A DNA stretch of 43,498 bases from an uncultured Ruminococcus sp. (GTDB taxonomy: Bacteria; Bacillota; Clostridia; Oscillospirales; CAG-272): the NCBI GenBank assembly GCA_902762505.1, contig CACWOQ010000037.1:1-43498 (forward strand), in the 5' to 3' direction. The notes below the pieces were generated by a model. It was not told the origin of the DNA, did no database searches, and saw only the letters and a list, made by a program, of their open reading frames with translations. Of this stretch, positions 7,594 to 11,270 are shown in pieces. Both the position numbers and the translations under genes were made by a program. Position 1 is the first letter of the stretch. Each line of letters starts with the position of its first letter.

Positions 7594-8907
7594 GTGAAAA
7601 GAATATTATCAGTTATAACAGCCGCGGCGGCTCTGCTGTCGCTTGCCGCGTGCGTCAAGGCTCCGGAGGAGACCGGAAATACGCGTCCGAAGGAAACGAA
7701 AGAGGCGGTAACGTACGAGCCGTATAAGGGCGTGAGCGGCGATTACTCCGGCGCGAAATTCGCGAGTATAGCCGATCTTACCGCGTCGTCGCCCGATGAT
7801 TCCGACGGATATTATAAAAATATCAAAGCTTACCGCAGCTGCGGCGACGGGCTGACCGCTTTTTACGACAAGCTGAATCAAAAAGTGCTTGAAGGCGGCG
7901 ACGCCGGCGCCGTTTCGCCGGTAAACGTTTATATGGCTCTTTCGCTTCTTGCGGAATGCGCCGAAGGCTCGTCGCGCGCCGAGATACTCGACGTTCTCGG
8001 CGTTAAAAGCATCGAGGAGCTGCGTGAACAGTCGAAGCTCGTGTGGTTCTATAACAACCGCGACGACGAGCAGGGAAAATCAATGCTCGCGAATTCGGTA
8101 TGGCTTTCAAGCGGTCTGCCCGTAAAGGAAGCGTGCGCGGAGCATCTTAAAAAAGACCACTATGCCTCGGCGTTTGCGGGAGATTTCGGCGATGAGAAGT
8201 ATATAAACGCCCTCAAACAATGGCTTTCCGATATGACGAACGGTCTGTTGGATAACAGCATAAACGGTCTTGTCATACCGCCGGATACGGCGATTGTGCT
8301 TGCCTCGACTCTGTATTATAAAACAAAATGGTATACGGCGTATGAAGAAACGGAGGAGGGCAAATTCGACGGTGAGCCCTGCGTTTTCAATAAAAAGGTA
8401 AACGATAATCGGATATACAAGGGCAAGGGCTTTACCGCGTATGCAGAAAGATTGTCCGACAACAACAGAATGTGGTTCTTTTTGCCGGACAAAAACAAGA
8501 CCGTGGACGACGTGCTGAAGACCGGAGTCATATCGTATATAAACAATGATCCGTTCGGTATCGAATACGAGGTTACGGTAAGGATGCCGGACTTCGATAT
8601 CAGTCTTAACGGCAGCATTAAAGACGCGCTGCGCGATATCGGCATAAGCGAGTGTATGACTGATAAAGCCGATTTTTCGGCACTGACTGACGACAGCTTG
8701 TTTTTGAGCGACGTTATACACGCCTGCCGTGTAAAAGCCGACAAGGACGGAGTCGAAGGCGCGGCTTTCACCGTTATGGCGCTTGCGGGAAGCGCACCCT
8801 TTGAGTTGATGAAGCTCAAATATGATTTTACGCTTGACAGACCTTTCGTTTTCGTTATCGAAAACGGCGGCACGCCGCTATTTACGGGAGTGGTGAACGA
8901 GGTTTAA
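7594..8907 (+). CDS. Serpin-family protease inhibitor, lipoprotein
   Basis: The 437-residue protein starts with GTG at 7594 after AAGGAGG (7576-7582). It has a lipoprotein signal peptide ending LAAC (Cys20) and a long linker to about residue 85. A serpin fold follows: GDAGAVSPVNVYMALSLLAECAEGSS (helix B region), LANSVWLSS, YYKTKW, FFLPDK, and KADKDGVEGAAFTVMAL leading into the reactive-centre loop, then DRPFVFVIENGGTPLFTGVVNEV. Serpins trap serine or cysteine proteases. Here it would be anchored outside the cell. The hinge GVEGAAFTV has Val and Gly at the usual P14 and P12 Thr/Ala positions. The scissile bond is probably among small residues (AGSA), which would fit elastase-like targets; that is inference. 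Confidence 0.9.
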   Translation: MKRILSVITAAAALLSLAACVKAPEETGNTRPKETKEAVTYEPYKGVSGDYSGAKFASIADLTASSPDDSDGYYKNIKAYRSCGDGLTAFYDKLNQKVLEGGDAGAVSPVNVYMALSLLAECAEGSSRAEILDVLGVKSIEELREQSKLVWFYNNRDDEQGKSMLANSVWLSSGLPVKEACAEHLKKDHYASAFAGDFGDEKYINALKQWLSDMTNGLLDNSINGLVIPPDTAIVLASTLYYKTKWYTAYEETEEGKFDGEPCVFNKKVNDNRIYKGKGFTAYAERLSDNNRMWFFLPDKNKTVDDVLKTGVISYINNDPFGIEYEVTVRMPDFDISLNGSIKDALRDIGISECMTDKADFSALTDDSLFLSDVIHACRVKADKDGVEGAAFTVMALAGSAPFELMKLKYDFTLDRPFVFVIENGGTPLFTGVVNEV

Positions 8908-8913
8908 ACTGTA

Positions 8914-8938
8914 GTAGGGGCGAGCATTGCTCGCCCGC
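8914..8938 (+). repeat. REP palindrome, copy 1
   Basis: A 25-base element begins GTAGGGGCGAGC, has an ATT loop, and continues GCTCGCCCGC. The stem is eight base pairs. It starts seven bases after the serpin stop codon and is the exact reverse complement of copy 3. Confidence 0.88.
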
Positions 8939-8963
8939 TTCAATGAAATTTGAATAAATCAAA

Positions 8964-9003
8964 AAAGGGTGAGCAAAACGGGGTTTTCCTCCGTGCTCAC
9001 CCT
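8964..9003 (-). terminator. Terminator of the REP-associated transposase
   Basis: AGGGTGAGCA and TGCTCACCCT form a perfect 10-base stem (8966-8975 with 8994-9003), extended by CGG/CCG pairing inside. On the minus strand it ends in a T run, directly downstream of the transposase stop codon. Confidence 0.85.
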
Positions 9004-9010
9004 GCGTACG

Positions 9011-9511
9011 TTATTTGATTATTCCGGGTTGTTCACCAAACGGATTTTCATAAATATACTTGATATGCGTCTCGTAATCCTCTTTGTTTCGTATCACGTG
9101 GTCGTAAAAAGATTTTTGCCATATTGACGACCCGATATGTTTTGTGACGTAACCTTTCATTTGTTGAACGACACGTGAGACCGTAGGGGCGACCATTGGT
9201 CGCCCGCGTTCATCCGTATGTATCGTAATCAACAAATGAATATGGTCGGGCATTATAACGTAACGGTCTACGGACAAAGCCGGATATGATACGGATATGC
9301 TTTTAACTGCTTCATCGACGATTTTTCCGTATTTTGACAGTCTGATATTCTGCGGGTCAAGCGGGCGAGCAATGCTCGCCCCTACATCAGACGGCGCTTC
9401 AAGCCAAAAATAGTTTATCCTCTTTGACGTGCAGACGGTCAGAAAATACGCTCCGCACGTGCTGTAATCAAAATGATTCAGCCTGTTTTGCTTTCTTGTC
9501 GGTTTATCCGT
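9011..9511 (-). CDS. REP-associated tyrosine transposase (RAYT, IS200-like), no canonical start codon
   Basis: The reading frame is open from 9511 to the stop at 9011. It gives about 166 residues resembling RAYT/Y1 transposases: RKQNRLNHFDYSTCGAYFLT, the HUH motif PDHIHLL, then WQKSFYDHVIRN and YIYENP near the C-terminus. These enzymes cut and move single-stranded REP elements. The expected start position reads ACG (9509-9511) directly after a TGA. No ATG, GTG or TTG occurs in frame until a TTG at 9275-9277, which would delete the conserved N-terminus. The gene may therefore be inactivated, or use a non-standard start. Two REP palindromes lie in frame inside it. It overlaps the 3' end of the GH127 gene by eight bases. 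Confidence 0.8.
   Translation of the reverse strand, partial: TDKPTRKQNRLNHFDYSTCGAYFLTVCTSKRINYFWLEAPSDVGASIARPLDPQNIRLSKYGKIVDEAVKSISVSYPALSVDRYVIMPDHIHLLITIHTDERGRPMVAPTVSRVVQQMKGYVTKHIGSSIWQKSFYDHVIRNKEDYETHIKYIYENPFGEQPGIIK
9183..9207 (+). repeat. REP palindrome, copy 2 (inside the transposase gene)
   Basis: The same 25-base element as copy 1 but with GACCATTGGTC at the centre in place of GAGCATTGCTC. The two changes compensate and keep the stem. In the transposase frame it encodes GRPMVAPT. Confidence 0.88.
9361..9385 (-). repeat. REP palindrome, copy 3 (inside the transposase gene)
   Basis: This copy is identical to copy 1 in reverse orientation (25 of 25 bases). In the transposase frame it encodes VGASIARP. 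Confidence 0.88.
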
Positions 9512-11270
9512 TTTTCACCCATATTTTCATATCACACTCCCCGCGGTTGGCGAACGCGTGGTACGGGATCATGAACAGGGGAGAAGGCGACGCGGGGACC
9601 GTTACCGCCGGAAGCCCGAAAGGACCTTTTACGACGTTCATTTCGCCGTCTTCGATCACGGCTTGCCCGAGAGCGGGATTGTCGACGCCCTCCGCGCACA
9701 TAACGAACGGTCCGTACGTGACGGCGCAAAGACCTCTGTCCGCCTCGACGTGCGGGTCTGCGTATCTCAGCTCCGGCGAAAGCTCGAGCCTCAGAGTCAC
9801 GGTATCAGATGGCGAGGCTGTAATTTTCAGATATCCTTTTACCGGCGCGGCGTTTACGGCCGTGCCGTTCTTTTCAAGCGAGTACTGCCGGCACCAGCCC
9901 GGTACGCGGATATGAAGCGTCACGTCGGCTGAAACGGTCAGAGTGACGTCGCCGCCGAACGGATAATCCGTTCTCTGCGAGATTTTCACGCCGTTCACTT
10001 CGGCGTCGGAGTCCGCGAACTGCTCGACGAATATACCGTCCTCGTCGTATCTGTAAAGGAAATCGCCGATCGACGGTATGAATCTCGTGACGTTCGGAGG
10101 ACAGCAGGAGCACGCGAACACCTTTACGCGCTGCGTTATCGGAAAGTGGACGCCCGGGCGGGTCTGTCTGTTTTTCAGGTCTATTTCCTGCGCGTTCTCA
10201 TAGAAGAACGACGTGCCGTCAAGCGACAGCCCGGACAGAAAACCGTTGTAGATCACGCGCTCGGCGACGTCCGCGTATTTCGCGTCGCTGTCAAGGCAAG
10301 CCATGCGGCGCGCGAACAGCGCAAGCGACAGCGCCGCGCACGTTTCCGCGTACGCCGTGTCGTTCGGGAGCCTGTGATCCTCTTCAAAGCGTTCTCCGTA
10401 CGCCTGCGAGCCTATCGCGCCGGTTATGTACATTTTCTTTTTCGCTATGTTGTCGAATATGCTTTTGCACGCGTGCGTAAGCGCCTCGTCTTTTTTGCGC
10501 TTCGCAACGTCCGCCATCGCGCAGTAGAAGTAGCAGGCGCGGACGCAATGCCCCCACGCCGTGAGCTGCTCCCGTGCCGGCAGATGGTCCTGACTGTAAT
10601 TGCTGTGAAGGCTGTCCTTGCCGGGCTTGCCGCCTAAGGCGCGTTTGCTGACGAAGAATTCCGCAAGCTCAAGCCATTTTTCCTCGCCGGTATGATCGTA
10701 GAGCTTTACGAGCGCAAGCTCGATCTCCTCGTGTCCCGGAGAGCTGAACGACGCGCTTTGTTCATCCATGAAAACGCGCTTCACAAGCTCCATGTAATCC
10801 TTCATAAGCGACAGGAATTTGCCCTTTCCCGTCGCTTTTTCATATGCGATCGCGGCTTCAAGCAGATGTCCCGCGCAGTAAAGCTCGTGGCAGTCGCGGT
10901 CGGTGAAGATCTTATCCGGCGCTATCTGCTGAAAATATATGTTGAAATAACCCTTGTACGGACCTTCCTTGATCCTTCCGCGCTCTATGCATTCCACAAG
11001 GTGATCCACCCGCGCCTCTTCTTCGGGCATCGGTTCCTTTTCCGTCAGATACGCGACGGATTCGATCCATTTGGCAACGTCGGAATCCCAGAAATAATGA
11101 GGCTGATCCGGATCGCCCGGCTTATAGTTCATCTCAAACGCGCCGATCCGTCCGGTCTCGTCGAACCTGTCGTACACGCTGTCAAGCGTGACGCGGCGCA
11201 CAAGCTTCTGCTTGTCCGCCCAAAAGCCGGATCTGATGTCAACTTTGTCAAACGGTACGTATTCGCTCAT
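9504..11270 (-). CDS. Beta-L-arabinofuranosidase, GH127 family
   Basis: The 588-residue protein matches the GH127 (DUF1680) family, which releases L-arabinose from arabinofuranosides. The family's zinc site of one Glu and three Cys is present: E309 and C311 in NDTAYAETCAALS, C389 and C390 in VFACSCCPPNVTR. Other family blocks are the alpha/alpha barrel with HELYCAGHLLEAA and the HLPNDTAY-type segment. C-terminal beta domains contain LRIRVPGWC-like VTLHIRVPGWC and YGPFVMCAEG. I chose the ATG at 11270 because GGAGG lies six bases upstream and it overlaps the previous stop codon (ATGA). No signal peptide is seen, so it is probably cytoplasmic and acts on imported oligosaccharides. It forms an operon with the epimerase. 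Confidence 0.92.
   Translation of the reverse strand: MSEYVPFDKVDIRSGFWADKQKLVRRVTLDSVYDRFDETGRIGAFEMNYKPGDPDQPHYFWDSDVAKWIESVAYLTEKEPMPEEEARVDHLVECIERGRIKEGPYKGYFNIYFQQIAPDKIFTDRDCHELYCAGHLLEAAIAYEKATGKGKFLSLMKDYMELVKRVFMDEQSASFSSPGHEEIELALVKLYDHTGEEKWLELAEFFVSKRALGGKPGKDSLHSNYSQDHLPAREQLTAWGHCVRACYFYCAMADVAKRKKDEALTHACKSIFDNIAKKKMYITGAIGSQAYGERFEEDHRLPNDTAYAETCAALSLALFARRMACLDSDAKYADVAERVIYNGFLSGLSLDGTSFFYENAQEIDLKNRQTRPGVHFPITQRVKVFACSCCPPNVTRFIPSIGDFLYRYDEDGIFVEQFADSDAEVNGVKISQRTDYPFGGDVTLTVSADVTLHIRVPGWCRQYSLEKNGTAVNAAPVKGYLKITASPSDTVTLRLELSPELRYADPHVEADRGLCAVTYGPFVMCAEGVDNPALGQAVIEDGEMNVVKGPFGLPAVTVPASPSPLFMIPYHAFANRGECDMKIWVKNG

Follow-up and report, generated by a model that had tools for sequence, protein, structure and literature searches.

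Short clostridial RAYT transposases carry a REP and an inverted REP within their own reading frame, probably as their cognate substrate

Repetitive extragenic palindromes (REPs) and REP-associated tyrosine transposases (RAYTs, also TnpA-REP) are found together in REPtrons, in which, according to Nunvar et al. 2010 (PMC2817692), the RAYT gene is always flanked by two inverted REPs. Single-stranded REP DNA is a known substrate of TnpA-REP (PMC8266576). In addition, the main text of Quentin et al. 2018 (PMC6006769) describes REPs that lie in frame within subclass 2.4 tnpA-REP genes, as a rule between the HuH and Y motifs. How RAYTs and REPs remain matched over the long term is an open question, given that REPtrons apparently do not move as a unit. 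Here, we describe a RAYT gene on a 43,498-nt contig of an uncultured Ruminococcus sp. (CACWOQ010000037.1; the whole of this stretch is called the window below) that contains both a REP and an inverted REP in its coding sequence. The arrangement is probably that of a REPtron whose REP pair sits within the reading frame, the two facing copies being the cognate REP substrate of the enzyme. The internal-pair architecture is class-wide in short clostridial RAYTs and spans numerous clostridial families from gut and rumen.

A preliminary description of the window had pointed to a 25-base palindrome just after a serpin gene and to two further copies within a transposase frame, read there in opposite orientations as VGASIARP and GRPMVAPT. 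All three copies were confirmed, as was the in-frame reading of the internal two, and the identification of the transposase as a RAYT and of the palindromes as REPs is supported. The features concerned are:

9011–9514, minus strand: RAYT (TnpA-REP) open frame, 167 aa from stop to stop, with its TAA stop codon at 9011–9013.
9361–9385, minus strand: site 1, a REP with its GTAG foot on the coding strand, encoding VGASIARP upstream of the HUH motif.
9236–9244, minus strand: HUH motif of the RAYT, here HIH, lying between sites 1 and 2; His columns 90 and 92 are invariant (alignment A1).
9183–9207, plus strand: site 2, an inverted REP with its GTAG foot on the template strand, encoding GRPMVAPT and located after the HUH motif, ahead of the catalytic Tyr.
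9056–9058, minus strand: presumed catalytic Tyr, Y152, in the motif YIYENP; the alignment column is invariant.
8914–8938, plus strand: third REP copy, inverted relative to the RAYT, 6 nt past the serpin stop codon and retained in the syntenic locus L010 of the same genus.

The range first given for the observation, 9011–9511, covers the RAYT frame but not the palindrome past the serpin gene (8914–8938). Likewise, the paired change reported for the middle copy does keep the stem, but it consists of one flipped base pair (G-C to C-G, two nucleotides) rather than two. With up to three mismatches allowed, the pattern GGGCGAGCAWTGCTCGCCC matches the window three times against 0.05 matches expected, and none of 100 shuffles reaches three. 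Folded as single-stranded DNA, each 25-mer gives GTAG, an 8-bp stem and a 3-nt ATT loop at about −10 kcal/mol (z −4.5 to −4.7), which is the form of a GTAG REP (a 5′ GT[AG]G foot, then a GC-rich hairpin). In the RAYT sense, site 1 begins GTA GGG (V-G) and site 2 finishes CCT ACG (P-T). Judged by its sequence and predicted fold, the frame itself is a RAYT, i.e. by family a single-strand DNA HUH nuclease: HIH and Y152 are invariant, and the best solved relative is the E. coli TnpArep structure 4ER8 (phmmer 2.8e-8, Foldseek 1.5e-7). The frame matches NCBIfam NF047646 at E 2.9e-20 with a score of 72.7, under the model cut-off of 80, and lies slightly under the cut-off of Pfam PF01797; NF047646 matches 55/55 aligned members at E <= 1e-3.

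In order to survey homologues, genome contigs were scanned with the RAYT protein, which gave 80 loci, mostly from rumen and gut Clostridia and of 36–90% identity; with loci from close relatives added, there are 85 full-length genes. The scans accept REPs with a G·T pair or a G·A bulge, and perfect stems were not demanded. Both sites are found in 80 of the 85 genes, while three have site 2 only, one has site 1 only and one has neither, i.e. site 1 is present at the equivalent place in 81/85, site 2 in 83/85 and at least one of them in 84/85. Nearly all homologues have GTAGGG...CC at the site 1 position and its inverted counterpart at the site 2 position, 157–225 nt apart (median 171). The stems at these two alignment positions are of at least eight types, e.g. 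GGGCGACC, GGACGACC, GGGCGGCA, GGAACGCCG and GGACACCC, as well as GGACAG with a G·A mismatch and GGGAGG. Since these genes had been found using the RAYT protein, a second set was drawn class-wide from the Clostridia with the family model NF047646, mainly shorter members being fetched. Among its short RAYTs, which carry 17 family codes, 24/33 have both sites and 32/33 at least one. In the long clostridial RAYTs (about 215–320 aa), the internal pair and the peptides are both absent. When plasmids were searched with the Spirosoma RAYT, no additional Bacteroidota or cyanobacterial cases emerged. It had been proposed that REPs either insert in frame into their own mobiliser or are part of it; the latter fits better than insertion, because the two sites occupy conserved positions in almost every short clostridial RAYT.

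Such conservation might be driven by the protein, with VGxxxxRP and GRPxxAPT kept for enzyme function and the palindromes as a by-product, and V43, G44, P53, P109 and T110 do indeed vary little or not at all in the alignment. However, the codons are almost fixed as well. The site 1 Val is GTA in 72/73 genes (GTA accounts for 32% of all Val codons) and the following Gly is GGG in 73/73, while the site 2 Pro is CCT in 72/74 (26% of all Pro codons). In nine related gene pairs, third-position differences occur at 3/155 REP codons vs. 432/1303 codons elsewhere (Fisher 5e-21), and the ratio of nonsynonymous to synonymous substitution rates (dN/dS) outside the REPs is 0.05–0.29 where computable. Random synonymous recoding of the same peptides (20,000 draws) yielded 8-bp arms 14 times at site 1, 47 times at site 2 and never at both. 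Furthermore, the middle residues vary with the stem, and L030, L074, L076, L133 and L140 retain one hairpin in a different reading frame, where it codes for other residues. Finally, the peptides are missing from the homologues that lack the palindromes (E. coli, Leptolinea, Spirosoma, L073, L195, L204 and the long clostridial RAYTs), the comparison by which the preliminary description had proposed to recognize a protein-driven match. Because of the codon bias, the scarcity of third-position changes, the recoding draws, the frame-shifted hairpins and the homologues devoid of the peptides, we conclude that the conserved entity is the DNA and not the peptide; the protein-driven explanation is extremely improbable and was rejected.

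Selection of the hairpin at the level of nucleic acid, as had been suggested, is thus upheld, and it can be refined toward the GTAG strand of the DNA. In the outer six stem pairs, the exceptions as read on the GTAG strand are G·T in 10 cases at site 1 and 12 at site 2, vs. one and no cases of C·A. The RAYT transcript would form hairpins too, and these could govern translation or stability, perhaps via RAYT binding; genes for IS200-type transposases are said to be expressed less owing to hairpins (cited in PMC3733652). However, the GTAG strand is the template at site 2, so that the mRNA carries C·A mismatches there, and the GTAG foot is retained at both sites although it lies on the template strand at one of them. 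The G·T strand bias disfavours the mRNA hairpin as the main driver, a role that we consider quite improbable for it. Because the non-Watson-Crick pairs are G·T on the GTAG strand at both sites, the pattern favours single-stranded REP DNA of that strand over mRNA as the form under selection. Concerted copying could be a contributor to this bias.

The two sites of a gene are also matched to each other. Comparing site 1 with the reverse complement of site 2 gives on average 1.5 mismatches in 25 nt within a gene and 11.2 between genes, and none of 20,000 permutations gave an equally low value. Stem pairs 3–7 interchange among AT, CG, GC and TA, and the stem type tracks the RAYT tree, from which the REP columns were left out. 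In the focal gene, L120 and L122–L126, the two sites of one gene differ by paired changes with each hairpin intact; copying alone is therefore insufficient to account for the match.

In the AlphaFold model of the RAYT (mean predicted local distance difference test score, pLDDT, 84), which among solved structures is closest to E. coli TnpArep in complex with a REP, site 1 (residues 43–50) is predicted as a low-confidence loop between the first strand (20–28) and helix 60–70. Site 2 (residues 103–110) is predicted as a loop between strand 90–97, which has the HUH motif at its head, and helix 111–126. Both loops would be able to bear extra residues. This predicted placement agrees with an account in which REPs were inserted long ago into two permissive loops and tolerated there as selfish elements, alike through copying from other REPs and of no benefit to the gene. 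In-frame REPs do occur in unrelated genes (PMC3733652), and copying between gene and 3′ flank is seen at L010, where two extra REPs carry 12 nt of the 3′ flank of site 1. Neutral inserts, however, should decay or vanish, yet at least one site is kept in 84/85 genes. Moreover, the internal pairs persist in genomes G000 and G043, where few or no other copies were found, and the paired differences within the focal gene, L120 and L122–L126 keep both hairpins in a way that copying alone does not give. We therefore regard tolerated insertion as unlikely.

Two further observations concern the stems themselves. In L042, L047, L079 and others of a 22-nt stem class, many REPs have a conserved G·A or A·A mismatch between conserved pairs, which is retained at both internal sites and is reminiscent of the bulge required by E. 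coli TnpArep (PMC8266576). L213 is a single open frame with apparently two RAYT-type REP pairs of unlike stems (GGGGGCTTGC; GAACTGTG/GACCTGTG), which may reflect the insertion of one RAYT into another or a fusion of two.

If the palindromes belong to a REP family, copies should be found elsewhere. The preliminary description had expected them in the same genome, where they are nearly absent, but relatives contain up to 163 dispersed copies. Within the family of the window, the focal type occurs in 20/30 RAYT-positive vs. 2/15 RAYT-negative genomes, at a maximum of 163 copies. The R. flavefaciens type has 31–51 copies in four R. flavefaciens genomes, 11 in one other and none in the remaining 21, and other REP types are dispersed as well. 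Over the types counted, several genomes of relatives reach 30–163 copies. Reversed control patterns gave zero matches in four copy searches and one single match in the count for the family of the window. In G033, a genome of the same genus with 163 focal-type copies, the only RAYT found is incomplete and lies at the end of a contig. G014, L092, L100 and L101, from rumen and gut Clostridia, contain regular arrays in which two or three REP types are mixed at a fixed spacing of about 45 nt, resembling bacterial interspersed mosaic elements (BIMEs). We also considered whether the segment of about 180 nt between the REPs spreads as a REPIN (a REP doublet forming a hairpin). This was rejected, as similarly spaced REP pairs elsewhere in relatives are without RAYT sequence; those at L090, L092–L094, L100, L101, L104 and L108 enclose either further REPs or no sequence that was recognised.

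The internal pair seems to take the place of the flanking one. Among genes with an internal pair, 13/79 have a REP within 300 nt and 66/79 have none, whereas flanking REPs lie within about 350 nt of all six short RAYTs without internal sites (L073, L110, L158, L195, L204 and L206); the difference (13/79 vs. 6/6, Fisher 6e-5) is indicative only, because the six pair-less genes were gathered from several searches. Since the focal gene has its inverted pair internally and a single REP past the 3′ end, it lies outside the flanking definition of a REPtron, although it may work like one. Movement as a unit, as for IS200/IS605 elements, is not seen either: the genome has a single RAYT, with the same neighbours in L010.

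Taken together, the embedded palindromes would be the cognate substrate of the RAYT, with a REP at site 1 and an inverted REP at site 2. In classic REPtrons such a pair flanks the gene; in short clostridial RAYTs it is within the frame, in two predicted loops, one on each side of the HUH strand. The enzyme would bind the hairpins while the gene is single-stranded, e.g. at the replication fork, and the pair would be retained because the gene has to remain matched to its substrate and move with it as one unit. RAYT specificity and REP stem would then change together. It is this function for the gene that we infer for the internal pair.

Several points weigh against the REPtron with an internal substrate pair. 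The RAYT tree rests on 140 columns and has many weak forks. The sister genes L043 and L050, although closely related, differ by a stem change made at both sites, so that a stem can be exchanged while the enzyme stays much the same. Part of the apparent concerted change could also come from copying between REPs. The focal genome holds three GTAG-bearing copies, all at the RAYT locus, plus two degenerate ones, and some RAYT-negative genomes hold REPs, as does G060 with 20 copies. Binding and cleavage of the focal REPs by the focal RAYT are what we infer from the family. In addition, the focal copy is probably broken by a 5′ frameshift. Its 5′ end has no in-frame ATG, GTG or TTG, and compared with the syntenic L010 gene it has a net 10-nt deletion that puts the former ATG out of frame (9504–9514), which could be true decay or an assembly error. 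It should be noted that all claims on intact genes thus rest on relatives and not on the focal copy.

The surroundings of the RAYT comprise three further features, the two genes being named by eye or in the preliminary description:

7594–8907, convergent with the RAYT: serpin-like gene.
8961–9002, between the serpin gene and the RAYT: terminator-like hairpin GGGTGAGC...GCTCACCC, followed by a T run in the RAYT sense.
Ending at 9504, upstream of the RAYT: gene resembling GH127.

L010 has the same GH127-like and serpin neighbours and 82% nucleotide identity to the focal locus. Its two internal REPs are identical to those of the focal gene, while 48 of 423 other positions differ. The RAYT ATG of L010 overlaps the end of the upstream gene (L010:400–445), and the Trp of the WQ motif is lost; both the focal and the L010 RAYT may be decaying. 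Two extra REPs lie at the RAYT stop codon of L010 (L010:905–1022), the TAG of GTAG being the stop, in the place of the terminator-like hairpin of the window, and they are followed by the 12 nt that in both species stand after site 1. The sequences point to a copying event that involved the RAYT gene and its 3′ flank, with the gene as the simplest source. The duplicated site 1 flank is the only direct hint for a more tentative possibility, that the reading frame itself is the recognition pair of the mobile unit and the RAYT reads its own REPs, either to limit its own action or with these REPs as the master copies that seed the genomic ones. If true, enzyme specificity and repeat sequence would be locked together in one stretch of DNA.

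A substrate pair inside the coding sequence is hard to lose by recombination without losing the gene. The matching substrate of each natural enzyme can be read from the same sequence, so that RAYT-REP specificity becomes readable and testable by swaps. The genes are also a clean example of one stretch of DNA under simultaneous protein and DNA-structure constraint.

Site 2, an in-frame REP between HuH and Y, is covered in principle by the in-frame REPs of subclass 2.4 (PMC6006769). We found no description of site 1, the matched inverted pair or the loss of flanking REPs in the main text of Quentin et al. or in other, mostly open-access papers. As far as that main text describes subclass 2.4, the clostridial RAYTs share with it the in-frame REPs, canonical long REPs with a GC-rich base, and the WQ and YIxNNP-like motifs. 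They differ in the extra site upstream of HuH, in that their sites form a matched inverted pair, and in that flanking REPs, to which the internal ones are additional in subclass 2.4, are mostly absent. Di Nocera et al. 2013 (PMC3733652) describe other palindromic repeats that are read in frame, namely GTAG REPs in other genes and Rickettsia palindromic elements, but these are scattered in unrelated genes at mostly different sites, whereas here two fixed sites lie in the cognate transposase. The TnpArep of E. coli (PDB 4ER8) has the same HUH fold and family, and is without both REP-encoded loops. With the REPtron (PMC2817692), the short clostridial RAYTs have in common a RAYT, a REP and an inverted REP, the GTAG foot and a stem preserved by compensatory change; there the REP pair lies beside the gene, whereas here it lies within the reading frame.
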